Source of the DNA: a virus
Length of the DNA stretch: 64,000 nucleotides
Virus record (IMG/VR): IMGVR_UViG_3300036719_006047
Location: 1-64,000 of that record
Strand: one strand, 5' to 3'
Position 1 is the first letter of the stretch, and each line of letters begins with the position of its first letter. Below the pieces are notes generated by a model, which worked only from the letters and a program-made list of their open reading frames with translations, was not told the origin of the DNA and did no database searches. Below, one piece after another: positions 22,423 through 64,000 of the stretch. The translations under genes and the position numbers were made by a program.

Positions 22423-22818
22423 TCAGGGACGCTTTCTTTGCTTATCCCTGATCTCCAGCAAGAACTGTGTCGCCCTCGTGGCGGTCTCGCTGTTGTCGTG
22501 CTTGTCTGGGTGACAGAGCTTAATCAGATTCTTCAATGTTTCGGGGTCAATATCGACATCAGAAGAAGGAGCAGCTTTTCTCTGCGCCAAGGCTTGGTTG
22601 GCTTCGGCCAAAGCCTTTTGTATCCGTTCAAGTTCAGTCTGTGCCCAAAGGAAGTTCAGGTCTCCCTTCACGAGCTCGAAGCCTTTCTTATTCTTAAAGC
22701 AGATCAAACATGTTCTGGCCCATGCTTCCGGCCGCGGATAACACTTTCCACAGCTCTCGCAGACAGCCAGCGGCCAGGACGTGACGTCACTCACGTCCTG
22801 GCCCGGCTTAAAGGTCAC
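22423..22818 (-). CDS. Zinc-finger plus J-domain-like protein
   Basis: A 131-aa protein. Residues 17-43 carry two Cys pairs (CESCGKCYPRP, TCLICFKNKKG) that form a likely zinc ribbon. Residues 92-110 read NLIKLCHPDKHDNS, which includes the HPDKH signature of DnaJ domains, followed by a helix with FLLEIRDK. Such short phage proteins are common but poorly characterised. A role in recruiting DnaK or in remodelling replication complexes is possible but unproven. It overlaps the ParB-like stop by 4 nt. Confidence 0.65.
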   Translation of the reverse strand: MTFKPGQDVSDVTSWPLAVCESCGKCYPRPEAWARTCLICFKNKKGFELVKGDLNFLWAQTELERIQKALAEANQALAQRKAAPSSDVDIDPETLKNLIKLCHPDKHDNSETATRATQFLLEIRDKQRKRP

Positions 22819-23930
22819 TCGGAATCGCCGTCGTTGTCGACGACATCGACCTCGGAATCGTCTTCCTGCTCTTCGTCAGCATTCTCGCCCTCGAAGTCAG
22901 TATCATCGTCGTCGCCATCATCGGCGTCGGCATCGGAGTCGTCATGGTCGGGCTCAACCGCATCGAGGGAATCAGCGTCGGGCGCGACCTCGTCGGTCGT
23001 CTCGCCCTGAGCGTCATCGCTCTCGGCCTTCTTGCTCTTGCGAGACTTCTTGCCCTCGGCATTCTTCGCCTCGGCCTTCTTGCGCTCGCGCTCCTCGGCC
23101 TTTGCCACAGCCTCCTCCTCGACCGCGGTGAGGAAGCGCACCATCCAGCTGTCGTCGGGAGCGTCACCGGTGGCGAACCACTCCAGAACTGCGCGCTGGG
23201 CCGGCTTGAGCATCGAAGCGCTGTCTGAGTCAAGCGCCTTCTTCACCCAGGCCCGCTTCACGCCCTGCTGCTCCTTCTTCTTGCGGCCGGAATCGACCGA
23301 AGGAGCGGAAGCGGTCGGACGCTCGAGGCGCTTGAGCAGCTTTGCCAGCTCAGCGAGCTGCTCGTCGCGGCCCAGCAGAGCCAGCTCCAGACCCACAGAG
23401 GCCGAGATCTTGCCCTCCTCGATGGCAGTATGAACGCTGGGATCGGCCTGGACAAGGCGCAGGTAGTTGCGCACCGTCTGAACGCTGCAGCCGAACGAGA
23501 TGCTGACCTCGTCGTGGCTCAGACCCTGGTTGAACAGGCGGGCGGCCTTCCGGGCCTTGGTCAGAATAGCGTCGGCGCGCCGGATCTCGTTGGTGGAGAC
23601 CATGATGCCCGAGACCACGCGGTCCTCAGCCATGACGGTGATGACGGGCACCTTGAGCGTGACCTCACCAGCAGCGGAAAGCTCTTCGTTCGCCTGGCGG
23701 GCAGCACGCACACGCTGCCGACCGTCGACAACGACAAAATTGCCGTCGTCGTTCCGGCAAATGACCGGAGACTGGATGCCGTACATCTTGATGTTCTTGA
23801 CGAGATTCTCGTCAACATCGAGCGAAATCCGCTCGTCGTACAGCAGGGCGTCCTCGCCCTGAGTGTCGTCCAGGCCGACAATGTGGATGTTCTTGGGATC
23901 GAGGTAGGTAACAGAGCGCTGGTTGGCCAC
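22815..23930 (-). CDS. ParB-like nuclease/HTH protein
   Basis: A 371-aa protein with a ParB/Srx N-terminal domain (DGNFVVVDGRQRVRAAR at 62-78, the box II GRxRxxA motif), a MAEDRV..GIMVSTNEIRR linker, and a helix-turn-helix GLSHDEVSISFGCSVQTVRNY at 136-156. The C-terminal third is low complexity: a basic AKAEERERKKAEAKNAEGKK segment, then a strongly acidic Asp/Glu tail to residue 371. The fold occurs in CTPase partition proteins and in phage regulators and nucleases. No ParA is seen, so partition is uncertain. The start is GTG at 23930 with AGGAGAAGCAA before it. Confidence 0.75.
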   Translation of the reverse strand: MANQRSVTYLDPKNIHIVGLDDTQGEDALLYDERISLDVDENLVKNIKMYGIQSPVICRNDDGNFVVVDGRQRVRAARQANEELSAAGEVTLKVPVITVMAEDRVVSGIMVSTNEIRRADAILTKARKAARLFNQGLSHDEVSISFGCSVQTVRNYLRLVQADPSVHTAIEEGKISASVGLELALLGRDEQLAELAKLLKRLERPTASAPSVDSGRKKKEQQGVKRAWVKKALDSDSASMLKPAQRAVLEWFATGDAPDDSWMVRFLTAVEEEAVAKAEERERKKAEAKNAEGKKSRKSKKAESDDAQGETTDEVAPDADSLDAVEPDHDDSDADADDGDDDDTDFEGENADEEQEDDSEVDVVDNDGDSE

Positions 23931-33208: not shown

Positions 33209-34524
<1,316 letters not shown>

Positions 34525-43432: not shown

Positions 43433-43444
43433 GGCCTGAATCAA

Positions 43445-47664: not shown

Positions 47665-47672
47665 GGGTCACC

Positions 47673-48194: not shown

Positions 48195-48202
48195 GGGTCA
48201 CC

Positions 48203-48907: not shown

Positions 48908-48915
48908 GGGTCACC

Positions 48916-49599: not shown

Positions 49600-49607
49600 A
49601 GCCTACC

Positions 49608-50060
49608 TCACTCATCGTCCATTCGGAGTTGAGTAGCCCTGATCCTAACCTTTCCTGTCTCAGCTACCTGCGCGATCAATCTCGGTCTTCTGAGCTCTTC
49701 TGATATTTTCATGTATTGTTCGCCCAGGAGTATAAGACCTTTCACTGTTTCTAGATTTTTTCTGGGCAAACCCATACCTTCGATGTTGGCTCCTGTGAAG
49801 TTTGCTCCCTTTATGTTGGCTTTATACATGTACGTTCTGCTCAAATCACAACCTGTAAAATTTGTTTCGCTCAAGTCAGCACCATGGAAATCTAAACTAC
49901 TCAAAGTGGCAAAGCTCATGTCCGCTTTAGACAAATCTAACTTTTTCATGTCTCCTCTTCTGTGTGGGAATTGAGGTCTTTCCTTTCCTTCCTTGAGCGC
50001 TATCCTGCAGCGCTCGGCGTGCTTTAGCAAGTAGACAACGCGGGGGTCAGACATGTCCAT
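49608..50060 (-). CDS. Pentapeptide-repeat protein 6 (short, diverged)
   Basis: A 150-aa protein with MDMSDPRVVYLLKHAERCR, a basic linker (HRRGDMKKLDL), about ten repeats, and a KGLILLGEQYMK segment. It ends AETGKVRIRATQLRMDDE, lacking the IKTPIFKY ending. Like proteins 1 and 37060 it belongs to a KGLILL subfamily. Codons are diverse, not homogenised. It sits between long members and may be functionally distinct. Confidence 0.82.
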   Translation of the reverse strand: MDMSDPRVVYLLKHAERCRIALKEGKERPQFPHRRGDMKKLDLSKADMSFATLSSLDFHGADLSETNFTGCDLSRTYMYKANIKGANFTGANIEGMGLPRKNLETVKGLILLGEQYMKISEELRRPRLIAQVAETGKVRIRATQLRMDDE

Positions 50061-50068
50061 GAATCAGC

Positions 50069-50980
50069 TCAGTACTTGAAGATGGGAGTTTTGATGTGAA
50101 GTTTGCCGTCTGAGCGCAGTTCGACAACAAGTCTCTTTTTGGACTTTCGTTTCCAGGACGCAGGCGCTGGTTCGTGGGGCAAAATAACTTTTTCAGCTAC
50201 TTCTTTGGGGTAACCGTCTTGCGGTACATTGACATACTCTGCGCTATTCAATTGAATTTGAGTAATCTTCGCATCGGTCAAGTCGGCAAAACCTATTTGG
50301 GCGCGGTTGAGCTTGGCGCCGTAGAGGTGGGCGGCGCTGAGGTTGGCGCGAGTAAGGTTGGTCCCGGTGAGGTCGGCGCCGTAGAGCTTGGCGCGGGTGA
50401 GGTCGGCGCCCGTGAGGAAGGCGCCGGTGAGGTTGGCATCGGTGAGGTCAGCGTCTTCGAGGATGGCGCCGCCGAGCTTGGCGCCGGTGAGGTCGGCGCC
50501 GATGAGCTTGGCGCCGGTGAGGTTGGCGCCGGTGAGGTTGGCACCTTTGAGTTTGGCGCCATCAAGGTTGGCGCCAGTGAGCTTGGCGCCGCGGAGGTCG
50601 GCGCCGCTAAGGTTGGCGCCGGTGAAGTCGGCGCGGGTAATGTTGGCGTTGTAGAGGATAGCGGTGTAGAGGTTGGCTTTGGTGAGGTCGGCGCCTCCGA
50701 GGCTGGCGCCGTAGAGGTTGGCGCCGGTGAGGTTGGCACCGCTGAGGTTGGCGTTGGTGAGGTTGGCGCCGATGAGGTTGGCGCCGGTGAGGTTGGTGCC
50801 GCTGAGGTCGGCTTCGGCGAGGTTGGCGCCGGCGAGGTCGGCGCCGGTGAGGTCGATGCCAGAAAGATCTTTTAGCTCATGCGGCAGAGGAGGTATGCTC
50901 TTTTTCCACCACTTAGCTTCTCGACAAGCCTCTGCGTGAGCGAGGACAGCGATAACGCGGGGGTCGGACATGTTGGCCAT
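50069..50980 (-). CDS. Pentapeptide-repeat protein 7 (303 aa)
   Basis: One of the longest members. N-cap [27 protein letters not shown], about 36 repeats, [16 protein letters not shown], then [16 protein letters not shown] and C-cap [24 protein letters not shown] 125-nt stretch in its 3' part is identical but for one base to the gene at 57308-58069, evidence for gene conversion across 7 kb. It is the first pentapeptide gene downstream of the SNF2 helicase, 3 nt from its stop. Confidence 0.88.
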
Positions 50981-50983
50981 GAA

Positions 50984-53818
50984 TCACTTCGATCTCGATT
51001 TGCTGCTAGCTTCTTGTGTGTTGAGTTGATGCATCCTTCTTTCCGCCTCTGCTGCAGTAGCGAAAGTGAGGAGGTCAGGCATCACTCTGTAAACGATGGG
51101 CCCCGAGAAGATGTCACTCTTCTCTGCGATGACGCGACGCGGCCCTGACTTCCTACCTACCGCTAGCATCTTTTCGTAGCGTACACGCTTAGCCCAAAAC
51201 TCAGCAGGATCGGCGATTATCTTTTCTACAGCTCTTTCGCGGCTCTCGGGTGTCGGCATGTTTGTGCCAGGAATGAGGAAGGGATAGGAATGCCTCCTTC
51301 CGGCAATCTGAAAAGCTCTTTGCTTTGCTTCTTCAGGACTGTAGCCTTCTCTCAAACCTGACTCAAAGATGGCCAACCGCATCCGTCGAATTTGCTCTTC
51401 GTACGGATCGAGCACCTCGATGCCGTCTTCTTTGGGGTTGGTGTTTGCCGTCTGTTTGTCTTTGGGCGCCTTGGCGTTGATGTTGTCGTAGCGCAGCCTC
51501 ATGACCTGTTCTGGCATCAATTCAGCCATCAAGATATGCAGATAGTCTCTAACGTTGACGCCTGCTCCTTTACCTGAACCTTCTTCGAGCAAAGTCTTGA
51601 ACTCAATCGGCATCTCGTTGAGCACTTGAGCCGGCTTTCTGTTGTACGAAGGCGCCGAAGAATAATCGTCTTGCGGTCCTTCCCCCAAAACGAGGCGCGT
51701 GTGGTTGCGCTTCTTCTCGATTCGGCTCATCAACGCAAACGAGAAAGGATCGTTGGGGATGACGTAGATGATTTTGGGCTCTACGTTCTGCTCGGGCCGG
51801 TTGATGCGGTCTTCTGCTTGCGCTTCGATGCCGGGGTTCGGCATGCGCTGAATGAACAACAGCGTGTCTGCTGCGCTCAGGTTCAACCCTTCGCTGCCTG
51901 CTCGGGTCAAGATGACAATGGCTCTCTTGTCCTTCGCGTCAAGTTTTTCGGGGAACCTCAGACGTCGGCTCAACTCATCGAAGTCGCTGTATTCGTCTCC
52001 AAGCTTCTTTGCGGCTGACTGCGGCGTCTTGATCGGCTCGAGCACACTCGACTTCTTTTCTGCCATGCTTACGCGAGAAGCGTCTGCAACGTAAATCCTG
52101 ATGTTCGGGAATGCCTCTCTCAGCTTCTCAAAAAGCTTCTTCACGACGTCTTTGTGGTAAGCAAAGATAACCATCGGCCTGTCGAAATCTTTGTTCTCCG
52201 TGTTGTTTATTCTGTTTGACACAGCAGCGATCGTGCCATCGATCACGCTGGTGCCCATTCCTTTCATGAGAGTCGGAGGGATTGGGATGTAACCGCCGTA
52301 AAGCAGTTTCTTCAGCTTGTCCTTGAACACGGCGACGACAGCAGGGCTGAGTACTTCAGCCGCTGGTCTGCCTTTGTTTTTCGTCAGGTAAGCGTCGAAT
52401 TCCTGGAACACCTTTGAGGCTGCGTTGATCTTTTTTGCGTATTCTGCTTTGTCGGACGCCTTTCCACTCTTCCGCGAAGATCTTGCGATGACCTCTTTCG
52501 ACTTCTCGATAGCGGCCATAACTTCTTCGATTCTCTGGCTGTCAGGCGGCAGAATCAGGTAGGCTCTCTTCTTCTCTCTGAGCTGGAAACGAGCCAAAGC
52601 TCCAGTCTCTACAGCAAGTCGCCTGGGGTGACGAGTGCCCTTCGCGTACAACTCTTTTTGCAGCTTTTTCTGGGGCTCCTCGTTCTCCCAGTCCTTGAAC
52701 GTGATGTGACCTGTCCTTGAGAGCGTCATATCGTCGAAGTTCAGTCCTGTCTTGGCAGACAAGAAAATCGCTTCGAGCGACTTCGCCATCTGCTCGTCTG
52801 CGACAGGGTAGTCGTGGTAAGGAACCTCACCCACCGGCTCGAGCATGTTCAGAATGCTGGCAAGCTCTCCTGGGTCGTTGAGCATCGGTGTGCCCGTCAA
52901 CGCCAGCACGTGGGGGATGTAGTTCGCCAAATAGTAGCAGACTTTTGTGTTTTCCGAGCCGTAGTACTTCAACCTGTGGGCTTCGTCGAACACAATGGTC
53001 TTGATCTTGGCTGTGATCAGGTCACGAACTTCGACCGCTTCTTTTTGCTGTGCAGGAGTTGGTAACTTTAGTCTTTTGCTTTTTGCCACGACCTCCTCGA
53101 CAGGCTCGCTCTCGTCCTCCATATCGTCCAAGCTTGATGCAAGCTCAACTCTATCTTCCTTTGCGCCGAACGCTGTGTAGTACTCGGGCAGGGCTCTGCC
53201 GGCATAAGCTCCTGCGGGCCAAAGTAACGTTCTCAGCATCTCATAGGTAACCAGAATTACACTGTTTTCGTTAGCTTCTTCGACCGTTCTTCTGAGCCTG
53301 TTTGATGCCTCTACCTCGACTACAGTGTAGTTTGTTCTCAGCGCAAAAGTGTTTTTCCAAGAAGGCAGAGCGCTTCTCGGACAAACAACGAGGGCAGGCA
53401 AGTAACTCTCTGTGTCCGTCTCGAGCGTTTGGCCCGCATCGCCTGCGGCAATCGTCAAAACAGCTGTAGTTGTCTTTCCTAAGCCCATAGGATCGAACAA
53501 GCCCGCTCTGCCGCCTCGGTACAAAGCGAACAGCATCCCGGCCATCTGGTAGGGCAAGGCTGGTTGGCCTTTGCTGTAAAACTTCTTCGCCTTGATAGCA
53601 TTATCGAGAACGGCTTTAGCGGCCGCATCGATCTTCTCGTAATCCTCTCCCGAGAAGCCGTACTTCTCGTTGATGATACCCGGATAGCGCGAGATCTTGC
53701 TCCCTGTGTCGGGAGTGATCTCTGCTACAGGACTTAAATTCTGCTTTTTGCCTCTCTTTGCGGGAGGGTTTTTGCGGAAGATGACTTCTCGGTCCGGGAG
53801 AAGAGCGATGCGGTACAT
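50984..53818 (-). CDS. SNF2-family helicase embedded in the array
   Basis: A 944-aa SF2 translocase. Residues 1-85 are an N-terminal extension. Walker A DPMGLGKTT near 109-117, DEAHRL near 275-280, TGTPMLNDPGEL, and in lobe 2 GSEGLNLSAADTLLFIQRMPNPG with AQAEDRINRPEQN (motif VI) are intact. A long insertion with Lys/Ala-rich coiled coil (about 440-500) separates the lobes. It is larger than the 24665 helicase and not its recent duplicate. It is co-oriented and contiguous with pentapeptide genes, hence probably co-transcribed; a functional link is untested. Confidence 0.9.
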   Translation of the reverse strand: MYRIALLPDREVIFRKNPPAKRGKKQNLSPVAEITPDTGSKISRYPGIINEKYGFSGEDYEKIDAAAKAVLDNAIKAKKFYSKGQPALPYQMAGMLFALYRGGRAGLFDPMGLGKTTTAVLTIAAGDAGQTLETDTESYLPALVVCPRSALPSWKNTFALRTNYTVVEVEASNRLRRTVEEANENSVILVTYEMLRTLLWPAGAYAGRALPEYYTAFGAKEDRVELASSLDDMEDESEPVEEVVAKSKRLKLPTPAQQKEAVEVRDLITAKIKTIVFDEAHRLKYYGSENTKVCYYLANYIPHVLALTGTPMLNDPGELASILNMLEPVGEVPYHDYPVADEQMAKSLEAIFLSAKTGLNFDDMTLSRTGHITFKDWENEEPQKKLQKELYAKGTRHPRRLAVETGALARFQLREKKRAYLILPPDSQRIEEVMAAIEKSKEVIARSSRKSGKASDKAEYAKKINAASKVFQEFDAYLTKNKGRPAAEVLSPAVVAVFKDKLKKLLYGGYIPIPPTLMKGMGTSVIDGTIAAVSNRINNTENKDFDRPMVIFAYHKDVVKKLFEKLREAFPNIRIYVADASRVSMAEKKSSVLEPIKTPQSAAKKLGDEYSDFDELSRRLRFPEKLDAKDKRAIVILTRAGSEGLNLSAADTLLFIQRMPNPGIEAQAEDRINRPEQNVEPKIIYVIPNDPFSFALMSRIEKKRNHTRLVLGEGPQDDYSSAPSYNRKPAQVLNEMPIEFKTLLEEGSGKGAGVNVRDYLHILMAELMPEQVMRLRYDNINAKAPKDKQTANTNPKEDGIEVLDPYEEQIRRMRLAIFESGLREGYSPEEAKQRAFQIAGRRHSYPFLIPGTNMPTPESRERAVEKIIADPAEFWAKRVRYEKMLAVGRKSGPRRVIAEKSDIFSGPIVYRVMPDLLTFATAAEAERRMHQLNTQEASSKSRSK

Positions 53819-53820
53819 GA

Positions 53821-54165
53821 TTAGAACCCACCCACTGAGTTTCTGTTTTCAGGAGCCGGCCCGAAACGAACGATACCGTTCACGACCTGCTTCTTCTCGA
53901 GAAGGTCTCTCTCGGTCGAGCCGTCCTCGCCCAGCTTCTGCTGCAGTTCAGCAATACCTACAGGCTCTTTCCTGTGAACAGAGCTGTTGTAAGCTGCTGT
54001 CTGCGGCACGAAATGTGGCGCAGAGAAGTAACCTGCCACCCCTCCGGCCGCTGCCGCCACCAACGGGATGTTGGAGTCCTCGTCAGCTTCGTACTTCTTG
54101 CCCAAGAAGTACCCGAGAGCTGCTCCGATGGCCGCCCCTGCGAGGCGTGCTGTATTCTGGGTCAT
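53821..54165 (-). CDS. Glycine-zipper membrane protein (114 aa)
   Basis: ATG 54165 is preferred: GGAGGCACC directly precedes it, and the longer frame to 54297 is not protein-like. The protein has two glycine-rich hydrophobic helices, LAGAAIGAALGYFLGKK (7-23) and VAAAAGGVAGYFSAP, then a polar helix (GIAELQQKLGEDGSTERDLLEKK). Glycine-zipper repeats oligomerise in membranes. It starts 2 nt before the SNF2 helicase gene. The same GGAGGCACC ribosome-binding site precedes the last gene at 63933. Confidence 0.65.
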   Translation of the reverse strand: MTQNTARLAGAAIGAALGYFLGKKYEADEDSNIPLVAAAAGGVAGYFSAPHFVPQTAAYNSSVHRKEPVGIAELQQKLGEDGSTERDLLEKKQVVNGIVRFGPAPENRNSVGGF

Positions 54166-54190
54166 GGTGCCTCCAGTTCTGCCCACTGAG

Positions 54191-54209
54191 TCTCGCCTAA
54201 GTAGCGAGA
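54191..54209. other. Leader hairpin of the glycine-zipper gene
   Basis: TCTCGC (54191-54196) and GCGAGA (54204-54209) form a perfect 6-bp stem with a 7-nt loop, 26 nt before the ATG at 54165. It could affect translation or message stability. No T tract follows. Confidence 0.3.
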
Positions 54210-54497
54210 ACGCAGGGCATCCACGAGACACAATAGCCTTTGCCCGGTCTTTGGTCGCTTTACCGACCCGTCTTCGAGTGCTGCAGCTCTGCGTCAATAC
54301 TTTGAGACTCGATTCACGTTGTACAGAGCGTCTTCTCGCTTTAGGCTAATACTTCTTCTATTTTCTGCCTTTCGAGCTAAATCTCTTTGGCCGAAGGGGC
54401 TATAAGGTTGAGTTTGTTCTATCTGAATCGCTTCCTTGCACTATTTTTAGTGAGCTACAAGCTCGCCTGCGAGGGTCAGACATGCTCATGCATCAGC
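54210..54497. other. Gap in the pentapeptide array
   Basis: This gap, counting the remnant at 54400-54489, breaks the otherwise continuous array. Outside the remnant, I see only a degenerate CTGCAG palindrome near 54282-54292 and no gene. A minus-strand TTGACG near 54297-54292 is a possible -35 without a good -10. Confidence 0.4.
54400..54489 (-). pseudogene. Truncated pentapeptide gene start (remnant)
   Basis: Immediately after the stop of the 54498 gene, the usual spacing and start context recur, and the frame opens MSMSDPR before diverging into an unrelated 22-codon tail and TAG at 54402. The N-cap start is therefore kept, but the beta-helix and C-cap are gone. The 5' junction is exactly where the next array gene would begin, so this is what remains after a deletion that also brought in the membrane protein and SNF2 helicase or removed their upstream neighbours. 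Confidence 0.75.
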
Positions 54498-55121
54498 TCA
54501 GTACTTGAAAATGGGAGTTTTGATGTGAAGCTTGCCGTCAGAACGAAGCTCGGCGACAAGTCTCTTTTTGGCGACACGGCTCCCGCGATCGGCTTCTGGC
54601 TCGTGAAGAAAAATAACTTTTTCGGCTACTCCTTCGGGGTAGTCCAAATTCGCAACATCGCGATACCCTGCGCTATTCAATTGACTTTGAGTGATCTTCG
54701 CGTTGTTCAAATCAGCGAAACCGATGGAGGTCCTGAACAAGCTGGCGTCGGTGAGATTAGCGCCGGTGAGGTTGGCGCCCTTGAGGTTGGCTTCCCCGAG
54801 GCGGGCGCCGGTGAGGTCGGCGCGGGTGAGGTTGGAGCCGCTGAGGTTGGCGCCGGTGAGCTTGGCACCGGTGAGGTTGGCGTCGGTGAGGTTGGCTCCG
54901 GTGAGGTTGGCGCCGTAGAGGTTGGCGCGGAAGAGATTGGCGCCGGTGAGGTCGGCGTCGTTGAGCTCGGCTTCGGCGAGGTCGGCGCCGGATAGGTCGA
55001 TGCCAGAAAGATCTTTGAGATTATGCGGCAAAGAAGGTCTGCTATCTCCCCGAGCATAAGCTTCTTTGCAAGCCCTTGCGTGAGCGAGGACAGCGATAAC
55101 GCGGGGGTCGGACATGTTCAT
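54498..55121 (-). CDS. Pentapeptide-repeat protein 8
   Basis: A 207-aa member with N-cap [21 protein letters not shown], some 20 repeats between residues 40 and 140, [32 protein letters not shown] and C-cap [23 protein letters not shown]. The VAEK helix varies (YPEGVAEK). It is the last intact gene before the gap and helicase, and its stop is 8 nt from the remnant start, matching the array spacing. Confidence 0.87.
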
Positions 55122-55129
55122 GATTCACC

Positions 55130-55675
55130 TCAGTACTTGAAGATGGGAGTTTTGATGTGAAGTTTGCCGTCAGAACGAAGTTCAACGACAAGTCTTTTTT
55201 TGGCTTCAGTAAGCCCGCTGCTGGGTTCGTGAAGCAAAATGAATTTTTTAGCTGCTGCCACTGGGTAACCATTGTATGCTACATTTATATTGGACGAAGA
55301 TTCAATTTGGTCTTGCGTAATCTTCGCGTCGGTCAAGTCAGCAAAACCGATGTAGGCTTTGGTCAAGTTGGCGTCGGTGAGGTTGGCTCCTGTAAGATCG
55401 GAGTCGTTGAGGCTGGCGCGAGTGAGGTTGGCGCCGGTCAGGTTAGCGTTAATGAGGTTGGTTTTGCCGAAGATGGCACCGGTGAGGTTGGCGCCCGTGA
55501 GATCGACGCCCTCGAGATCGGTGTCACCGAGGCTGGCGTTCGTGAGGTCGATGCCAGAAAGATCTTTGAGCTCATGAGGCAGAGGAGGTCTGCTCTTTTT
55601 AAACCACTTAGCTTCTTTGCAAGCCCTTGCGTGAGCGAGGATAGCGACAACGCGGGGGTCGGACATGTTGGCCAC
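55130..55675 (-). CDS. Pentapeptide-repeat protein 9
   Basis: A 181-aa short member. N-cap [27 protein letters not shown]; only about 14 repeats; [38 protein letters not shown]-cap [23 protein letters not shown]. The VAAAKKF helix deviates from [10 protein letters not shown]. Start GTG 55675. The repeat part is not homogenised. Otherwise standard. Confidence 0.87.
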   Translation of the reverse strand: MANMSDPRVVAILAHARACKEAKWFKKSRPPLPHELKDLSGIDLTNASLGDTDLEGVDLTGANLTGAIFGKTNLINANLTGANLTRASLNDSDLTGANLTDANLTKAYIGFADLTDAKITQDQIESSSNINVAYNGYPVAAAKKFILLHEPSSGLTEAKKRLVVELRSDGKLHIKTPIFKY

Positions 55676-55683
55676 GGTTCACC

Positions 55684-56544
55684 TCAGTACTTGAAGATGG
55701 GAGTTTTGATGTGAAGTTTGCCGTCAGAACGAAGTTCAACGACAAGTCTTTTTTTTACTTGGCGCTGCAAGCTATGACTTTTCTGTTGCAGCAAAATAAC
55801 TTTTTTTGCTATTTCTTTCGGGTAACCATCTTCTGCGACATCTGTGTGTTCAATAAAGTTCAGTTGGGCCTGAGTGACCTTAGCGTTAGTCAAATCTGCG
55901 AATCCCAAATCAGCGTAGTTGAGGTCGGCTCCCGTCAGATCAGCACCTGTGAGGTTAGCGCGGCTGAGCTTGGCGATGCTGAGGTCGGCACCAGTAAGGT
56001 CAGCCCCTTCTAAGTTAGCGCTTTTGATGTCGGCTCCGGTGAGGGCGGCGCCGTTGAGGTTGGCACGATTTAAGTTGGCACGGTTCAACTCGGAGTAGCT
56101 TAGCGTGGCTGAGCGGAGGGAAGCGCCGCTGAGATCAGCTCTGCTAAAATTGGCGTTGAGGCATTTGGCTGACTCAAGTTCTGCGTTGTTTAATTTGGCG
56201 TCGACAAGTTTGACTTCTTGAAGATTGGCGTCGGTGAGGTCGGCACCAGTGAGGTCTGCGCCCGTGAGATCCGCGGAATACAGTTGGGCGCCCGACAGCT
56301 TGGCACCCCTAAGGTCGGCGCCAGTTAGGTTGACTGCAGAGAGATTTGCACGCTCAAGCTTGGCGCCACTTAAGTTGGCTCCGGCAAAGTTGACGCCGAT
56401 GAGGCTGAGGCTGCTGAGGTCTATTCCAGATAATTCTTTAAGGTTTTCGGGGAATGGCGGTATGGTTTTTCCTGCGTTTTCGGCTTGGTAATGAGCCTTT
56501 ACGTAATCGAGCACGCGAGGGACACGGGGATCAGACATGTCCAT
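55684..56544 (-). CDS. Pentapeptide-repeat protein 10 (286 aa)
   Basis: A long member. N-cap [23 protein letters not shown] is less conserved (DYVKAHY in place of AHAEACR). It has about 36 repeats with diverse codons and a Cys (KCLNANFS) in a layer position. Then [31 protein letters not shown] and [23 protein letters not shown]. Its long but non-homogenised coil implies that length is retained by selection, not only by recent duplication. Confidence 0.87.
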   Translation of the reverse strand: MDMSDPRVPRVLDYVKAHYQAENAGKTIPPFPENLKELSGIDLSSLSLIGVNFAGANLSGAKLERANLSAVNLTGADLRGAKLSGAQLYSADLTGADLTGADLTDANLQEVKLVDAKLNNAELESAKCLNANFSRADLSGASLRSATLSYSELNRANLNRANLNGAALTGADIKSANLEGADLTGADLSIAKLSRANLTGADLTGADLNYADLGFADLTNAKVTQAQLNFIEHTDVAEDGYPKEIAKKVILLQQKSHSLQRQVKKRLVVELRSDGKLHIKTPIFKY

Positions 56545-56552
56545 GAATCACC

Positions 56553-57299
56553 TCAATACTTGAAGATGGGAGTCTTGATGTAAAGTTTGCCGTCTGCACG
56601 CAGTTCAACGACAAGTCTCTTTTTAACTTGTTGCCTCGATCTTCTGAGTTCTGGATTGTGGAATAAAATAACTTTTTCGGCTACTTCTTTTGGGTAACCG
56701 TCTTGTGCTACATCAGTGTAAAGTGCGCTGTCTAGCTGGGCCTTAGTGATGTTCGCGTTGGTTAAGTCAGCAAAACCGATGTTGGCGGCGATGAGGTTGG
56801 CGGCGTTGAGGTTGGCGGCGGTGAGGTTGGCGTCGACAAGCTTGGCGTCGGTGAGGGTGGCGTGGGTGAGGTCGGCGCTGCTGAGGTCGGCGCGGCTGAG
56901 GATGGCGCTGCCGAGGTAGGCGCGGAGGAGCTTGGCGTCAGTGAGGTTTGCGTGGCTGAGGTCGGCGTTGGTGAGCTTGGTGTCAGTGAGGTCGGCGCGG
57001 CTGAGGTCGGCACCGTTTAACTTTGAGAAGTAGAGCTCGGCGGCGCTTAGGTCGGCACCTTCGAAGTTGGCGCGGGTGAGGTTGGCGCGGATGAAGTAGG
57101 CGCTACTGAGATTGGCACCGGTAAAGTCGGCACCTTCGAGGTTGGCGTCACTGAGGTTGGCACTGCTGAGGTCGATGCCAGACAAATCTAGGAGATTAGA
57201 AGCTAAGACTGGTCCGTCTTCTCTTCTATTTTTAGCTTCTTTGCAAGCCCTTGCGTGAGCGAGGACAAGAGGAACGCGGGGGTCAGACATATCGGCCAC
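56553..57299 (-). CDS. Pentapeptide-repeat protein 11
   Basis: A 248-aa member with N-cap [28 protein letters not shown], repeats rich in AxLTxA with Thr/Ser/Asp variety, [33 protein letters not shown] and a basic [34 protein letters not shown] start at 57299. It includes runs of LTDAKL and ADLSSADL, which are of mixed coil types, suggesting a turn in helix twist. Confidence 0.87.
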   Translation of the reverse strand: MADMSDPRVPLVLAHARACKEAKNRREDGPVLASNLLDLSGIDLSSANLSDANLEGADFTGANLSSAYFIRANLTRANFEGADLSAAELYFSKLNGADLSRADLTDTKLTNADLSHANLTDAKLLRAYLGSAILSRADLSSADLTHATLTDAKLVDANLTAANLNAANLIAANIGFADLTNANITKAQLDSALYTDVAQDGYPKEVAEKVILFHNPELRRSRQQVKKRLVVELRADGKLYIKTPIFKY

Positions 57300-57307
57300 A
57301 GATCACC

Positions 57308-58069
57308 TCAGTACTTGAAGACGGGAGTCTTGATGTGCAGTCTGCCGTCTGCTCGAAGCTCAACAACAAGTCTTTTTTTGGCTGTTCGTTTCCAGGACGC
57401 AGGCGCTGGTTCGTGGGGCAAAATAACTTTTTCAGCTACTTCTTTGGGGTAACCGTCTTGCGGTACATTGACATACCCTGCGCTATTCAATTGAATTTGA
57501 GTAATCTTCGCGTTGGTCAAGTCAGCGAAACCTAATTTGGCACTTTTGAGGTCGGCGCCTTCGAGGTTGGCGCCGGTGAGGTCGGCGTCGGTGAGGTCGG
57601 CGCCGCCGAGGTCGGCGTCGGTGAGGTCGGCGCCGGTGAGGTTGGCGCCGCTGAGCTCGGCGCGGAAGAGTCTGACGCGGGTGAGGTTGGCTCCGCTTAG
57701 GTCAGCGCCCTCGAGCTTGGCGCCGTCGAGATCGGCGCCGCTGAGGTCGGCGTTGGTGAGGTTGGCGCTGCTGAGGTCGGCGCCTTCGAGAACGGCGTCG
57801 GTGAGGTTAGCGTCGGTGAGGTTGGCGCCGATGAGCCAGGCGCTGATGAGCTTGGCGCTGATGAGCTTGGCGTCGGTGAGGTTAGCGTCGGTGAGGTTAG
57901 CGTCGGTGAGGTCGGCTTCTTCGAGATTGGCGCCGGAGAGGTTGATGCCAGAAAGATCTTTGAGTTTATGAGGCAGAGGAGGTCTGCTCTTTCCCCCCGA
58001 CTTAGCTTCTCGACAAGCCTCTGCGTGAGCGAGGATAGCGATAACGCGGGGGTCGGACATATCGGCCAC
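57308..58069 (-). CDS. Pentapeptide-repeat protein 12 (gene-conversion partner)
   Basis: A 253-aa member. N-cap [27 protein letters not shown], then about 32 repeats; contains the [16 protein letters not shown] block that recurs in protein 14. Downstream, 57387-57511 matches 50148-50272 of protein 7 with a single mismatch, and the following [19 protein letters not shown] differs only in a few residues. C-cap ends HIKTPVFKY (Val for Ile). Start GTG 58069. Confidence 0.88.
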   Translation of the reverse strand: MADMSDPRVIAILAHAEACREAKSGGKSRPPLPHKLKDLSGINLSGANLEEADLTDANLTDANLTDAKLISAKLISAWLIGANLTDANLTDAVLEGADLSSANLTNADLSGADLDGAKLEGADLSGANLTRVRLFRAELSGANLTGADLTDADLGGADLTDADLTGANLEGADLKSAKLGFADLTNAKITQIQLNSAGYVNVPQDGYPKEVAEKVILPHEPAPASWKRTAKKRLVVELRADGRLHIKTPVFKY

Positions 58070-58077
58070 AGATCACC

Positions 58078-59046
58078 TCAGTACTTGAAGATGGGAGTCT
58101 TGATGTGCAGTCTGCCGTCTGCTCGCAGTTCAATGACAAGTCTCTTTTTGGCCTTTCGCTTGTGTGGTATAGGTTCTGGTTCGTGAAGCAAAATAACTTT
58201 TTCGGCTACTTTTTTAGGGTAACCGTCTTTTGCTACATCGACATAATTTGAGGCATTCAATTGATCTTGAGTAATCTTCGCGTTGGTCAAGTCAGCGAAA
58301 CCTATTTCGGCTCTTTTGAGGTCGGCGCCTTCGAGGTTGGCGCCGGTGAGGTTGGCGTTGGTGAGGTTGGCGCCGGTGAGGTTGGCGTCGCTGAGTTTGG
58401 TGCTGTGGAGGTTGGCACCGGTGAGGTTGGCGCCCCAGAGGTTGGCGCCGTTGAGGTCGGCGCCGGTGAGGATGGCGCCTCTGAGGTCGGCGCCGGTGAG
58501 GTTGGCACTGGTGAGGTCAGCGTTGGTGAGGTTGGCGCCGGTGAGGTTGGCGCCGACGAGGTTGGCGCCGGTGAAATTGGAGCCGATGAGCCAGGCGTCG
58601 CGGAGCTCGGCGCGGTTGAGGTTGGCGTAGTTGAGCTTGGCGCCGTTGAGCCTGGCGCCGGTGAGGTCGGCGCCCCCGAGGCGGGCATTCTCGAGGGCGG
58701 CGTCGGTGAGGTCGGCGCCGGTGAGGTTGGCGCCGCTGAGGTTGGCGCCTCTGAGGACGGCGCCGGTGAGGACGGCGCCGGTGAGGTTGGCGCCGTTGAG
58801 GTCGGCGCCGGTGAGGTTGGCGCGGGTGAGGTTGGCGCCGTTGAGGTCGGCGCCGGTGAGGATGGCGCCTCTGAGGTCGGCGCCCTCGAGCTTGTCGCCG
58901 TCGAAATCGGCGCCGGTGAAGTCTATGCCAGACAGATTTCTAAGATTAGAGGGTAAGACTGGAACGATTTCTCCCTGCTGCTTAGCTTTTTGGCAAGCCT
59001 TTGCGTGAGCGAGGACAGCGATAACGCGGGGGTCGGACATGTTCAT
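58078..59046 (-). CDS. Pentapeptide-repeat protein 13 (longest, 322 aa)
   Basis: The longest member: N-cap [26 protein letters not shown], about 43 repeats, [33 protein letters not shown] and [23 protein letters not shown]. Several blocks recur inside it and in protein 14, notably [20 protein letters not shown], at DNA and protein level, indicating duplication by recombination. With about 11 coils of four pentapeptides, the rod should be roughly 5 nm long (about 0.48 nm per coil, known for pentapeptide helices). Confidence 0.88.
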
Positions 59047-59054
59047 GATTCACC

Positions 59055-59855
59055 TCAATACTTGAAGATGGGAGTCTTGATGTAAAGTTTGCCGTCTGCT
59101 CGCAGTTCAACGACAAGTCTCTTTTTGGCTATTCGTTCCCAGGACGTAGGCGGTTCGTGAAGCAAAATAACTTTCTCGGCTACTTCTTTGAGGTAGCCCA
59201 AATCCGCAACATTGACATAATTTGAGTCATCCAATTGATCTTGAGTAATCTTCGCGTTGGTCAAGTCAGCGAAACCTATTTCGGCGCCGTTGAGGTCGGC
59301 GCCGGTGAGGTCGGCGTCGGTGAGGTCGGCGCCGGTGAGGTTGGCGCCGCTGAGCTCGGCGCGGAAGAGTCTGACGCGGGTGAGGTTGGCGCCGTTGAGG
59401 TCGGCGCCGGTGAGGTTGGCGCCGTTGAGGTCGGCGCCGGTGAGGATGGCGCCTCTGAGGTCGGCGCCGGTGAGGTTGGCACTGGTGAGGTCAGCGTTGG
59501 TGAGGTTGGCGTCTTTGAGGTTGGCGCTGTTGAGCTTGGCGCTGTTGAGGTTGGCGCGGGTGAGGTTGGCGCTGTAGAGCTTGGCGCCTCTGAGGTCGGC
59601 GCTGAAGAGCCAGGCGCCGCTGAGGTTGGCGCCGTTGAGGTCGGCGCCGGTGAGGTCGATGCCGGTGAGCTTGGCGTCGGTGAGGTCGGCGCGGGTGAGG
59701 TTGGCGCCGGTGAGGTCGGCGCCGGTGAGGTCGATGCGATAAATATCTTTGAGAATATGCGGCAGAGAAGGTCTGCTTCTTTTCTGCCGATTAGCTTCTC
59801 GACAAGCCTCTGCGTGAGCGAGGACAAGAGGAACGCGGGGGTCGGACGTGCCCAT
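59055..59855 (-). CDS. Pentapeptide-repeat protein 14
   Basis: A 266-aa member. The N-cap begins [22 protein letters not shown], with Thr in place of the usual Met before SDPR, so the normal internal Met start is absent and ATG 59855 must be used. Beta-helix of about 35 repeats with the [10 protein letters not shown] block shared with protein 12 and the [14 protein letters not shown] block shared with 13. C-part: [61 protein letters not shown] replaces GYPKE. Confidence 0.88.
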
Positions 59856-59863
59856 GAATCACC

Positions 59864-60406
59864 TCAGTACTTGAAGATGCGATTTTTGATGTGAAGCTTG
59901 CCGTCCGCTCGCAGCTCAACAACAAGTCTTTTTTTGGCAACACGGTTCCAATCGACAGTTTCGTGAAACAAAATAACTTTTTCGGCCACTTCCTTAGGGT
60001 AACCCTGATATTCTACATCACGGTAAAATGCTTCTTCCAGCTGGGCCTGAGTGACCCTCGCGTTGGTTAAGTCAGCAAAACCTATTTTGGCGCGGTTGAG
60101 GTTGGCGCCGTTGAGCTTGGCGCCGTTGAGGTCGGCGTCTTCGAGGTAGGCGCCTCTGAGGTTGGCGCCCGTGAGGTCGGCGCCGATGAGGTCGGAGCCG
60201 CGGAGGTTAGCGTCGGTGAGGTCGGCGTTGGTGAGGTTGGCGCCGGCGAGGTCAGCGTCTTCGAGATTGGCGCCGGAGAGGTCGATGCCAGAAAGATCTT
60301 TGAGCTCATGAGGCAGAGGAGGTCTGCTCTCTTCCCCCCAAAAAGCTTCTCGACAAGCCTCTGCATGCGCGAGGATAGCGACAACGCGGGGGTCGGACGT
60401 GTCCAT
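59864..60406 (-). CDS. Pentapeptide-repeat protein 15
   Basis: A 180-aa short member. [26 protein letters not shown] begins it (again Thr before SDPR, so the start is not the usual internal Met), with about 15 repeats, [32 protein letters not shown], and [23 protein letters not shown], where NR replaces TP. The simplest complete cassette, suitable as a reference for the minimal architecture. Confidence 0.87.
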   Translation of the reverse strand: MDTSDPRVVAILAHAEACREAFWGEESRPPLPHELKDLSGIDLSGANLEDADLAGANLTNADLTDANLRGSDLIGADLTGANLRGAYLEDADLNGAKLNGANLNRAKIGFADLTNARVTQAQLEEAFYRDVEYQGYPKEVAEKVILFHETVDWNRVAKKRLVVELRADGKLHIKNRIFKY

Positions 60407-60414
60407 GAATCACC

Positions 60415-61137
60415 TCAGTACTTGAAGATGGGAGTTTTGATGTGAAGCTTTCCGTCTGCGCGCAATTCGACGACAAGTCTCTTTTTGGCAACACGGTTCT
60501 TGGACACAGGTTCTTTCGCGTGAAGCAAAATAACTTTTTCGGCTACTTCTTTGGGGTAACCGTTTTGTGCAACATCGACATACCATCCTCTATCCAATTG
60601 AGCTTTAGTAATCTTCGCGTTGGTCAAGTCGGCAAAACCTAAGTTAGCTTCACCTCCTGAGTAGAGTTCACCTAAGTAGACGCCGGTGAAGTCGGCGTCG
60701 GTGAGATTGGCGCCGGTGAGGTCGGCGTAGCTGAGGTTGGCGCGGTTGAGGTTGGCGCCAGTGAGGTTGGCGCCGTGGAATCTGGCGGCGCTGCCGAGCT
60801 TGACGTCGGTGAGGTCGGCTCCGGTGAGGTCGGCGCTGTCGAAGTAGGCGCTGCTGAGGTCGGCGCCGGTCAAGTTGGCGTCGGTGAGGTTGGCGCCTCT
60901 GAGGTCGGAATTGCCGAAGTAGGCGCCTCTGAGGTCGGCGCTGCTGAGGTCGGCGCCGGTGAGGTTGGCGTCGGTGAGCAAGGCTTCGATGAGCCGGGCG
61001 CCGGAGAGGTCGATGCCAGACAGATATCTAAGATTATAGGGCAAGCGTGAAGAGAGTCTTCCCTGCTGCGTAGCTTGTAGACAAGCCTCTGCGTGAGCGA
61101 GGACAGCGATAACGCGGGGGTCGGACATGTTGGCCAC
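60415..61137 (-). CDS. Pentapeptide-repeat protein 16 (first in the array)
   Basis: A 240-aa member at the 5' end of the array. N-cap [25 protein letters not shown]; about 27 repeats. A short insertion YLGELYSGGEANLGFADL breaks the coil near residues 160-178, which implies a kinked or loop-bearing helix. [18 protein letters not shown] and [23 protein letters not shown] follow. Start GTG 61137, only 3 nt after the stop of the 61141 gene, so translation is coupled. Confidence 0.87.
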   Translation of the reverse strand: MANMSDPRVIAVLAHAEACLQATQQGRLSSRLPYNLRYLSGIDLSGARLIEALLTDANLTGADLSSADLRGAYFGNSDLRGANLTDANLTGADLSSAYFDSADLTGADLTDVKLGSAARFHGANLTGANLNRANLSYADLTGANLTDADFTGVYLGELYSGGEANLGFADLTNAKITKAQLDRGWYVDVAQNGYPKEVAEKVILLHAKEPVSKNRVAKKRLVVELRADGKLHIKTPIFKY

Positions 61138-61422: not shown

Positions 61423-61465
61423 CTGTCACTCTCGCTCTTAGGGGGCGCGGCACAGGAAGGTGCTC

Positions 61466-62653
61466 GTGCCTGTCTCTGAAACTGAAACGTTAGAAGCGAT
61501 TGCATTGCTCCCTGAACATTCCTGGCTACGGCAGTACGTCATTCACGCCCTCAAGCAGACTGTTGCTCCTCTCTGTTATCACATCGGCATCGGTATCGCT
61601 GTTCTCGGCGTTACCTGCCCCATTCATTACGGCATGTCTTATGCAGGCCCACTTCGGGCGAACAATTTTGTGCTCTGTGTCGGTCGATCTGGCGAAGACA
61701 ATAAATCCACAGCCCTCAACATTGGTATTGAGCTTCTCAAAAGCGCTGAATCAAGCCTGATAGGCGACTTCCCGGGATCTCAGGAAGGGTTGATTGAAAG
61801 CTTGATGGATCAGGAATCCCAAGTGATTCCAATGTCGGAGTTCGGCAAGTTTCTTTCCTCGGCCCAGCGCGGGTACTTCGAACCCATCAAGACTGCTTTG
61901 ACTGATCTGTGGGACTGCGGAAAGCAGACAAGGAGAAAAGCGGCTCAGCGGGGTCAGGTCGTAAAAGTTGAAGTTGAGAACCCCAGACTTTCTATTGCAG
62001 CCGCTTGCTCCATCCCTTACCTCGAAAAACATACTTTATCGGAGGACTGGACAGGAGGCTTCATGGGGCGATGGCTCGTTTTCTACGGTATGCGTGAACG
62101 GTATGATGCAAATCCCGTAGGCGACGACAGCATGGTTCCCCTTCTGAAAGAAGGCTTGCAGTCTCGCGCGCAAACAGCTTCTGCAGGCTTCTGCAAAGGC
62201 TTGACGCCCGAAGCTCAGGAGCTTTGGGATGAGTGGTACAAAGACATCGTTCACCGCAGACTGCCCAACAACATCGTGGGCATCCGTTCTCGAGCGCCGA
62301 CTATCGCGAGAAAGCTGTGTCTTGTTCTGGCTTGGGATTACGGACTGGCTCGCGAAGGCGCCCCTTGGGATCTCGATGTCGACATTTTGCGCCCCGCCAT
62401 TGCGATCACTGAGCTTCACGTAAAGAGCTTGGTCGACCTTTCCTCGATGATCGCGGAGCACGCTGACGCACGAATGCGTAGATCTGTCATCGACGCCGTG
62501 GAATGCGTCGGAGGCGTTGCTACTCTGGGCGAGATTCTCTCTCACTTGAAGATGAGAAAACGCCCTGTGGTCGAAGTGCTCGATTCCTTGATCGAAGAGG
62601 GAAGAATCAAACGAATCAAGACTTCCCTCGGGTACTCATACGAACTTCAATGA
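61466..62653 (+). CDS. DUF3987-like P-loop protein
   Basis: About 395 aa; GTG 61466 is preferred because AGGAAGGTGCTC precedes it (GTG 61460 has its ribosome-binding site too close). Contains a Walker A-like GRSGEDNKST at 73-82 (two extra residues compared with GxxGxGKT), a region QVIPMSEFGKFLSSAQRGYFEP, and a C-terminal winged-helix segment (GVATLGEILSHLKMRKRPVVEVL). This arrangement matches the DUF3987/primase-helicase-like proteins of phages and mobile elements. The insertion in Walker A makes activity uncertain. Its 3' end overlaps the convergent gene by 38 nt. Confidence 0.7.
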   Translation: MPVSETETLEAIALLPEHSWLRQYVIHALKQTVAPLCYHIGIGIAVLGVTCPIHYGMSYAGPLRANNFVLCVGRSGEDNKSTALNIGIELLKSAESSLIGDFPGSQEGLIESLMDQESQVIPMSEFGKFLSSAQRGYFEPIKTALTDLWDCGKQTRRKAAQRGQVVKVEVENPRLSIAAACSIPYLEKHTLSEDWTGGFMGRWLVFYGMRERYDANPVGDDSMVPLLKEGLQSRAQTASAGFCKGLTPEAQELWDEWYKDIVHRRLPNNIVGIRSRAPTIARKLCLVLAWDYGLAREGAPWDLDVDILRPAIAITELHVKSLVDLSSMIAEHADARMRRSVIDAVECVGGVATLGEILSHLKMRKRPVVEVLDSLIEEGRIKRIKTSLGYSYELQ

Positions 62654-63224
62654 GAGGCAGCAGCCACTTCAGATTGACGGGCTTGAGCGAGCCCGGCTTT
62701 GTCGGAACAAGTGGCGTGTAAATCTCTTTTTCCGGTGTGGGCTGCGCCCACTCTCGAAGGGTCTGGATCGCTTGCTTGGGCAAGATGATCCAGGCCTTTG
62801 AGCCATTGGCTTCAGGCGTTTCGTAACGGTCTTTGTTTTCGTTGTAGATGACATGCCCCCACGTCCTTGTCTTCAGGCTCTTTGCTTCGAGACCAGACAA
62901 GATGCAGTCCGCGATGGCGTCTACGACTTCGACAGGCACCTGAGGGATGTCCACGATGTTCTCCACGGGCTTGGGAGGTCTTCCGAGGGGCAGGACAGGG
63001 AGATCGGGCAACTGCTTTTCGTAAAGCTCAAGCATGTACCGAGAGTAAGCTCGGTAAGCAGAACGAGTTTTGGGGTGCAGAAGGATGACTCCTTTCACTT
63101 GCTCCTCGTCCTCGAAGGTAGTTGAGTTCAAAGCTCTTTCGAGGCAATTGATGTGAGACAAGTAGACTTTGATCGAGTTGTCCTTCATCTGCATCTCTTT
63201 CTTGAGCCATTCTTTGAACTGCAT
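62616..63224 (-). CDS. Hypothetical protein with a possible recombinase core-binding-like N-terminus (202 aa)
   Basis: ATG 63224 is chosen because CGGAGTGACC precedes it; the longer frame to 63332 runs into the inverted-repeat region. Residues 1-80 (FKEWLKKEMQMKDNSIKVYLSHINCLERALN) have the SAM-like look of the core-binding domain of tyrosine recombinases, but no catalytic domain is visible in the 202 residues. The C-terminus contains VVDAIADCILSGLEAKSL and a beta-rich WGHVIYNENKDRYETP. A role in site-specific DNA binding is plausible but unproven. Its upstream region contains the inverted GTTA repeats. Confidence 0.5.
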   Translation of the reverse strand: MQFKEWLKKEMQMKDNSIKVYLSHINCLERALNSTTFEDEEQVKGVILLHPKTRSAYRAYSRYMLELYEKQLPDLPVLPLGRPPKPVENIVDIPQVPVEVVDAIADCILSGLEAKSLKTRTWGHVIYNENKDRYETPEANGSKAWIILPKQAIQTLREWAQPTPEKEIYTPLVPTKPGSLKPVNLKWLLPLIEVRMSTRGKS

Positions 63225-63233
63225 GGTCACTCC

Positions 63234-63259
63234 GTTAACTGGTTTACGGGATAACAGAA
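63234..63259. repeat. Left arm of a 26-nt inverted repeat with GTTA octamers
   Basis: The arm reads GTTAACTG...GGATAACAGAA. Its reverse complement pairs with 63389-63414. On the minus strand the arm contains three consecutive 8-nt units beginning GT(T/A)A, so it looks like an iteron-type binding site. It lies 10 nt upstream of the 63224 start. Confidence 0.55.
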
Positions 63260-63388
63260 CTCGTTTACCCTGTGTCGCGCTGGTAGTCAAATCACCTGGA
63301 ATAGAAAGACATAGGTACTTCTCCTTATGCATGTCTATTCCAGACTTGTCTCTCTGATTTCAGACAGCGTGCGCAAACGATAACGTAC

Positions 63389-63414
63389 TTCTGTTATCCA
63401 GTTATTCAGTTAAC
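63389..63414. repeat. Right arm of the 26-nt inverted repeat
   Basis: The arm holds GTTATCCA, GTTATTCA and GTTAACTA in tandem and ends TTAAC. About 20 of 26 positions pair with the left arm; the last 11 (GGATAACAGAA) and first 8 are identical. The arms are about 130 bp apart. Confidence 0.55.
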
Positions 63415-63435
63415 TACGCCCGGCGCAAGCATCGC
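63415..63435. other. Spacer before the 9-bp tandem repeats
   Basis: A short GC-rich stretch between the inverted-repeat arm and the repeat array with no feature I can support. Confidence 0.3.
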
Positions 63436-63730
63436 GTCGCGTCACGTGCGTGTCGTGCGTGTCGTGCGTGTCGTGCGTGTCGCACGTGTCGTGCGTGTCG
63501 CACGTGTCGTGCGCGTCACGCGTGTCGCACGTGTCGCACGTGACGTGGGAGTCGTACGTGTCGCACGTGACGTAGGGACCGTACGTGTCGCACGTGACGC
63601 ACGTGTCGCACGTGACGTACGTCCACTCCGTACGGCGCGCACGTTACGTACCCGCTCCGTACGGCGCGCACGTAACGTGCATGCACGTACGCCCACCGTA
63701 CGTCCGCACGGACGTGCGCATGTGTACGTG
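63436..63730. repeat. CACGTG-rich 9-bp tandem repeat region
   Basis: From 63436 to about 63620 the sequence is built of imperfect 9-bp units of the form YRCGTGWCG, around 20 copies, with about nine CACGTG hexamers plus CACGTGAC and TACGT. Beyond it, a 19-nt sequence repeats at 63626-63644 and 63655-63673, and TACGTA, ACGTGC and TGCACGTAC palindromes follow. The region is extremely CpG-dense. A plus-strand open frame of 117 codons across it is just the 9-bp periodicity read as Arg-Val-Val triplets, so it is not treated as a gene. Possible functions: origin, centromere-like site, packaging site or regulator-binding array. Confidence 0.8.
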
Positions 63731-63932
63731 ATAGAAAGGGCCGGAGTTAATCCAAAGAAGGCCAAAAAAATTTTGTTAGACCAAAGAGAGGGTCGATAGG
63801 AACCTTACTGTTTCCGACGGTTTCTGTCGATACCCTCAGTCTCTCAGGGATCGTGGTTGATTCCCGAGAGCGAGGGGTTTGTCCCCCACGGGAGCGTGTT
63901 GTATCGCTCCCTCACATGCCCTTGGAGGCACC
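63731..63932 (+). promoter_or_regulatory. Structured leader before the last gene
   Basis: Contains three consecutive hairpins: 63841-63850 with 63861-63870 (9 of 10 pairs including one wobble), GGGG...CCCC at 63874-63886, and GGGAGCG (63890-63896) with CGCTCCC (63905-63911). GAGGGT (63788-63793) and ACCCTC (63832-63837) can pair as well. There is no promoter motif I trust. The leader is about 200 nt and rich in structure, suggesting post-transcriptional control. Confidence 0.4.
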
Positions 63933-64000
63933 ATGTCCGCTGTTCTCCCCGCGCAGGCCTTCGTCGAGACCTCCACCATCACCGTCCCCGTGGACGGCCG
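63933..64000 (+). CDS. N-terminal fragment of a gene running off the right edge
   Basis: ATG at 63933 has GGAGGCACC immediately upstream, identical to the ribosome-binding site before the 54165 gene. The 22 visible residues read SAVLPAQAFVETSTITVPVDG, too little to identify. The strong ribosome-binding site and structured leader suggest a highly expressed protein, for example structural. Truncated by the window. Confidence 0.6.
   Translation, partial: MSAVLPAQAFVETSTITVPVDG

Follow-up and report, generated by a model that had tools for sequence, protein, structure and literature searches.

The phage genome examined here carries 20 contiguous 9-bp units of consensus YRCGTGWCG, an array that occurs once in the record and lies at the junction of two oppositely transcribed gene arms, beside an inverted-repeat element that has a homologous second copy. 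Acting in cis, the array may serve to bind protein within a central control region, and a replication origin probably lies in that region too; this reading is preferred tentatively, and the support for it is circumstantial. Sequence seldom reveals where the control or origin regions of a large unclassified phage lie, and here a single 700-bp region at the arm junction unites the 9-bp ACGT array, a twinned inverted-repeat element and a leader-shared motif.

The window, that is, the whole 64,000-base stretch of DNA analysed, comprises bases 1–64000 of a 136,910-base virus record with a GC content of 55%; the remaining 72,910 bases were examined as four stretches (labelled L005, L006, L007, etc.), and "record" below refers to everything. 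The two record ends had no terminal repeat in common. A large terminase (phrog_2 and PF17289, searched across the 136.9-kb record) gave no match, and a scan of ~55–60 proteins revealed no structural module; the phage genome is therefore probably larger than the record, which would be a fragment of it. Among the encoded products are a DNA polymerase (a 1601-aa frame with probable inteins), Sak4, an SSB-like protein, and UvrD- and Dda-type helicases, together with RIIA/RIIB, a DprA-like protein, nine tRNAs, and a ParB-like protein. In the middle of the polymerase frame (window 11776–16581), the profiles of PhoH, ribonucleotide reductase, and thymidylate synthase gave matches, a behaviour typical of inteins. 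At three places in the record (window 41843–45076; L006:18245 to L007:538; L007:17588–19950), a gene for a MoxR-like ATPase precedes a DUF2201/VWA-like gene (phrog_1297 and phrog_1314). Genes at 64–67 kb reach 77% GC vs. 55% for the genome, and the nine-tRNA cluster (L005:3011–4093, genome 67.0–68.1 kb) adjoins very GC-rich genes. The features used below are as follows.

61460..62653, plus strand: DUF3987/phage DNA primase-helicase-like protein, the nearest replication-type gene, ~0.8 kb from the array
62616..63224, minus strand: first left-arm gene, 202 aa, ATG at 63224 after GGAG
63226..63299, plus strand: inverted GTTA element, left arm (GTTAACTGGTTTACGGGATAACAGAACTCG...), 52.8 bits in an nhmmer search with a profile built from the arms themselves
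63296..63343, no strand: 18-bp hairpin in the inter-arm spacer (CTGGAATAGAAAGACATA / TATGCATGTCTATTCCAG)
63342..63418, minus strand: inverted GTTA element, right arm, homologous to the left one and scoring 46.6 bits in that nhmmer search
63447..63626, plus strand: the 20 contiguous 9-bp units, from Tandem Repeats Finder and register analysis
63447–63518, plus strand: first part of the array, mostly TGCGTGTCG/CACGTGTCG
63519–63626, plus strand: second part of the array, CACGTG/TACGTG units in which position 7 is T or A, plus two degenerate TRGGGASCG units
63623..63678, plus strand: two copies of a 27-nt repeat (CCRCTCCGTACGGCGCGCACGTWACGT) at 29-bp spacing, each closing with an ACGT-N-ACGT pair
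63675..63730, no strand: more ACGT palindromes, including the perfect 14-mer ACGTGCATGCACGT at 63675–63688
63736..63932, plus strand: leader preceding the first right-arm gene, structured (RNA fold z −3.1)
63933..64000, plus strand: start of the first right-arm gene (259 aa, 77% GC, genome 63933–64712, running past the window)
L005:771–936, 1299–1455, and 1850–2017 (genome 64.77–66.02 kb): three structured leaders that are nearly identical, the first having an RNA fold z of −5.4
22815..23930, minus strand: ParB-like protein (ParB fold and HTH_ParB), the candidate binder of the initial annotation

Tandem Repeats Finder placed the array at 63445–63622 with a period of 9, 19.8 copies, and 76% matches, and reported periods of 18 and 27 as well, whereas register analysis resolved 20 units, confirming the about 20 YRCGTGWCG units with many CACGTG palindromes described initially. 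Unit position 4 is G in 20/20 units and the remaining core positions are conserved in 17–19 of the 20; positions 1–2 are TG, CA, TA or, once, CG, and position 7 is mostly T or A. The consensus is matched exactly on the plus strand by 16 of the 20 units, and through the alternating first two positions CACGTG is formed in nearly half of them. The stretch is also as CpG-dense as had been described, with an observed/expected ratio of 1.96 vs. 1.07 genome-wide.

No second such 9-bp array was found anywhere in the 136.9-kb record. The array has the strongest lag-9 self-similarity of the record (self-identity of 0.57 vs. 0.285 genome-wide), and the ACGT density is at its record high there, with 23 per 300 bp and almost fourfold fewer (6) in the next densest window. 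Outside the array, the YRCGTGWCG 9-mer occurs 14 times on both strands vs. ~10 expected from an order-2 Markov model, which is background frequency only; copies of the repeat scattered through the genome, regarded beforehand as a sign against a dedicated site, were thus not seen. CACGTG itself occurs 9 times within 63430–63735 and 11 times across the rest of the 136.9 kb, where 22 (Markov estimate) or 40 (composition) would be expected, so it is depleted elsewhere in the genome. Other repeats in the window, a perfect hexamer GCCGGA (15.8 copies, 33479–33573) and a 24-bp repeat (3.5 copies, 98% matches, 37752–37834), lie within called genes.

Downstream of the units, the 27-nt repeat starts at 63623 and 63652, with 93% identity between its copies, and Tandem Repeats Finder reported a 29-bp-period repeat spanning 63607–63678. 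The "19-nt direct repeat" noted earlier proved to be the exact core (CTCCGTACGGCGCGCACGT) of this longer, imperfect repeat. Close ACGT pairs (ACGT-N0-1-ACGT) number 15 in the record, and 13 of these are in the array region (6) or in three downstream leaders (7), the other two, at 22779 and 131037, sitting in terminator-like hairpins. The three near-identical leaders, ~165 nt long, precede GC-rich plus-strand genes starting at 64.9, 65.5, and 66.0 kb, and each contains one or two copies of the 9-bp unit CACGTACGT immediately 5′ of the ribosome-binding site; the leaders differ by exactly 9 bp, and the ACGT-pair motif lies ~20–40 nt upstream of the start codons. The suggested binding array for a regulator is supported by the confinement of these pairs, bar the two hairpin pairs, with binding itself being a prediction. 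The 259-aa protein of the first right-arm gene (63933) gave no match in the family search.

The array sits in a 709-nt gap (63225–63932) between the oppositely transcribed gene arms. Described initially as the longest non-coding region, this gap is so for the window, but not for the record, where six longer gaps exist elsewhere, one of them containing tRNA genes. By the simple gene calls made in this analysis, 56/63 genes left of the junction are on the minus strand and 81/82 to the right are on the plus strand. Within the left arm, a minus-strand gene run (window 46945–61137) carries DNA repeats of 15-bp period and about ten of its genes look alike; 58078–59046, the only gene of the run that was translated, encodes a pentapeptide-repeat protein.

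The cumulative AT skew has a minimum plateau at 62–73 kb, and AT skew largely tracks gene strand. At fourfold-degenerate sites, with forks taken to leave 63 kb, the AT skew was −0.226 for co-directional and −0.400 for head-on genes (p = 0.045, by gene permutation with 7 head-on genes only), while the corresponding difference in GC skew was not significant (p = 0.20). This skew residual and the arm junction lend weak support to an origin at 63 kb. The most AT-rich 60-mer of the gap, at 63% A+T, is unexceptional for the genome and does not mark an AT-rich unwinding region; DnaA-type boxes were not found near the array, and the array itself is GC-rich. Both an AT-rich unwinding region and DnaA-type boxes are dispensable for some phage origins. 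For the protein of the first left-arm gene (62616), the family search gave no significant match and the AlphaFold model was unusable (pLDDT 37), and a recombinase core-binding fold considered for its N-terminal helices was dropped on that pLDDT. Scans of the 63225–63932 gap for sigma-70 promoters and terminators found nothing.

A twin of the inverted GTTA element, homologous in both arms, was found at genome 96560–96981, 33 kb from the first and outside the window. Its arms are 63 nt long and 83% complementary, with a spacer of 294 nt, and it lies in a 787-nt non-coding gap (L006:12412–13198, genome 96412–97198) with flanking CGTAAGTGTTAAT repeats. A four-arm profile scored 46.6 to 61.4 bits for those arms and 9.0 bits (E 0.14) for the next match in the record; such a profile finds its own members by construction, and pairwise scores across the two loci serve as the independent test. 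The 63-kb right arm scored 41 and 42 against the two 96-kb arms (maxima of 1000 shuffles, 30 and 25), and the left arm scored 36 against one of them (shuffle maximum, 30), with only the left–left pair, one of the four cross pairs, being not significant (score 17). By these comparisons, the GTTA element has exactly two copies in the record, with four related arms. Both copies fold as single-stranded DNA far above shuffles (z −5.4 for the 63-kb element and −7.5 for the twin). The twin lacks the 9-bp array and is inside the plus arm, away from any skew switch, which counts against the origin part of the preferred reading; since it lacks the array, the GTTA element and the array are separable modules. 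In sum, the origin proposed initially gains circumstantial support from the arm junction, the weak replication-type skew, and the inverted element with its homologous second copy. It also speaks for the preferred reading that the closest plus-strand gene to the left is the primase-helicase-like one.

On the preferred reading, the array would be an accessory block of the central control region, bound co-operatively by a phage protein that recognises DNA sites centred on ACGT. A dimeric protein could pack along the 9-bp pitch to form a nucleoprotein filament. Remodelling by this filament would let an initiator, seated on the adjoining inverted GTTA boxes, open the DNA or load a helicase, and/or would direct transcription outwards into both arms. 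The same protein might read the ACGT pairs of the three downstream leaders. The sequence itself shows the array, its single occurrence in the record, its place between the arms, the ACGT pairs in common with three leaders, and the second, homologous GTTA element; that a protein binds there, which protein this would be, and that replication starts there are what we infer.

A purely regulatory role, in which the array is an operator/enhancer or part of a long 5′ leader for the GC-rich right-arm genes at 63.9–66.9 kb and takes no part in replication, is the alternative that survives best, although we think it rather unlikely. It would account for the ACGT-N0-1-ACGT pairs in the three downstream leaders, among which the copy number of the 9-bp unit differs, and it fits the folding, far above shuffles, of the first of these three (z −5.4) and of the first right-arm gene's own leader (z −3.1); that the array and the three leaders have the motif in common could indeed reflect pure gene regulation or RNA hairpins. 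However, within each leader's conserved structure the motif makes up a single small hairpin, whereas the array region extends over 300 nt and its folding is unremarkable, and the skew and the arm junction would be left unexplained. Single-strand folding of the array was little above the composition level (z −1.85 as DNA and −1.6 as RNA), so we do not take it for a structured RNA, and a double-stranded binding array is favoured over a folded RNA. An Rfam match to MIR918, at 38 bits vs. a gathering score of 268, was discarded as a low-complexity chance match.

Neutral tandem expansion, in which slippage multiplied a CACGTG-type 9-mer within a non-coding gap and the functionless copies are now drifting, is unlikely. 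The nested 9-, 18-, and 27-bp periods and the runs of identical units are typical of slippage, and short arrays of the YRCGTGWCG type are present in unrelated high-GC genomes. Nevertheless, ACGT is strongly enriched off the 9-bp register, with 8 occurrences in 63620–63735 vs. 0.33 expected (a Poisson estimate that ignores the 27-nt duplication, to which part of the excess is due). Palindromes persisting off the register are not predicted by plain slippage, and this excess is the best evidence that the ACGT motif itself, beyond its tandem repetition, is being kept, as the sequence suggests. The recurrence of close ACGT pairs in three separate leaders, and otherwise only in the two terminator-like hairpins, likewise argues against a neutral origin, as does the depletion of CACGTG in the rest of the genome.

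The initial annotation had also proposed a partition site for the ParB-like protein (22815), which by its sequence is a genuine ParB relative. Bacterial chromosomal parS is a 16-bp palindrome, TGTTTCACGTGAAACA (PMC7383237), and CACGTG at a 9-bp period automatically yields TG-N3-CACGTG-N3-CA, the parS skeleton. A partition or clamp-loading site made of such an overlapping lattice would thus suit a phage that encodes an HTH_ParB protein, yet neither canonical parS nor a close variant was found in the array. The best site there, TGTCGCACGTGACGCA at 63586, matches 12/16 positions, all four mismatches being at TT/AA positions, as the TTT/AAA flanks of parS are replaced by TCG/ACG, and two sites with 3 mismatches lie outside the array (60512 and 124053). 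In Caulobacter ParB, parS is contacted by Q162, G170, K171, S172, R173, N178, G201, and R204, with R173 invariant among parS-specific variants (PMC7383237). The 22815 protein, read by eye from its alignment, has H, G, C, S, V, N, S, and L at these eight positions, that is, only G170, S172, and N178 are kept (3/8) and 5/8 contacts are changed, including R173 to V; its NTP-motif is also altered (GRQR vs. GERR in typical ParBs). ParA (PF13614) had no match across the record, itself probably a fragment, and the same was true of ribbon-helix-helix, actin-like, and tubulin-like proteins (PF01402, PF17989, and PF00091). The partition proposal was therefore weakened by these results, and such a site is improbable.

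ParB-fold proteins outside partition systems are known (PMC12704722), and a non-canonical role of the 22815 protein has a low probability. The array would then be an overlapping, GC-shifted parS-like lattice with a 9-bp pitch, loading a phage ParB-fold clamp without ParA beside one of two homologous inverted-repeat origins. This is quite improbable, but if true, a ParB-type clamp would be organising phage replication or transcription instead of segregating the genome.

A packaging (pac or cos) site, also raised initially, would be expected to be unique, repeat-rich, and non-coding, as the array is, but it is very improbable given a mid-record position between replication genes and early-type genes and a record in which neither large terminase nor structural module was recognised. 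Translation of the array is scarcely credible: frames of 117 aa (plus strand) and 107 aa (minus strand) are open through it, as expected of any stop-free 9-bp repeat, but their codon scores are negative (−5.2 and −20.0, respectively) and their products are low-complexity VRVxRV/TRTTRA repeats. The array carries no coding signature, its codon usage being unlike that of the phage's genes, and a translated frame, which would have spoken against a non-coding site, was not seen as far as sequence allows.

Relatives were sought for the array and its surroundings. A nucleotide search of the phage collection returned nothing, and protein scans of viral contigs with the 62616, DUF3987, and 63933 proteins found no relatives, while those with RIIB and the DprA-like protein found distant contigs only. 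Three contigs (L098, L103, and L104) have four of the phage's genes, those for RIIA, RIIB, the DprA-like protein, and the 38426 protein, at ~30–50% identity; their gene order is different and they lack the array, which is uninformative at that distance. No relative close enough for a conservation test was found among annotated phages and viral contigs, collections that may omit near-identical records. The array pattern was matched in 14 viral and 72 genome stretches, mostly as short runs, and no related phage control region was seen among them. The leader and GTTA-arm patterns gave no match or chance matches only in viral contigs.

Compared with known systems, the array resembles bacterial parS in its CACGTG core and TG-N3-CACGTG-N3-CA skeleton, but forms an overlapping lattice rather than isolated 16-bp palindromes and lacks the TTT/AAA flanks. 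Ribbon-helix-helix proteins such as ParR, omega, and MetJ bind centromeres or operators made of contiguous short repeats. The array is similar to these sites in that its units are head-to-tail, gapless, and of the 7–11 bp class, which would suit a dimer filament, but the unit sequence is unrelated, save for an ACGT centre as in met boxes, and RHH_1 had no match in the record. The origin of phage ICP1 was mapped experimentally by a read-depth peak near 60 kb (PMC7145576); ICP1 is likewise a large phage with a mid-genome origin, which in our phage is a candidate, and its annotation around ~60 kb has no obvious parallel to the array region. Phage SPP1 has two origins, oriL and oriR, bound by one protein, G38P (PMC3485210). 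Like SPP1 and iteron origins, the array consists of non-coding repeats near replication-type genes, in a genome with two related candidate elements; unlike them, its units are 9 bp, GC-rich, and contiguous rather than spaced, no initiator was identified, the origin role is a reading of the sequence, and the second GTTA element is without an array. Given the homologous second inverted element, a two-origin arrangement like that of SPP1 would be worth testing, and the region supplies small, concrete DNA fragments with which to look for the binder and to ask whether the phage has one origin or two.
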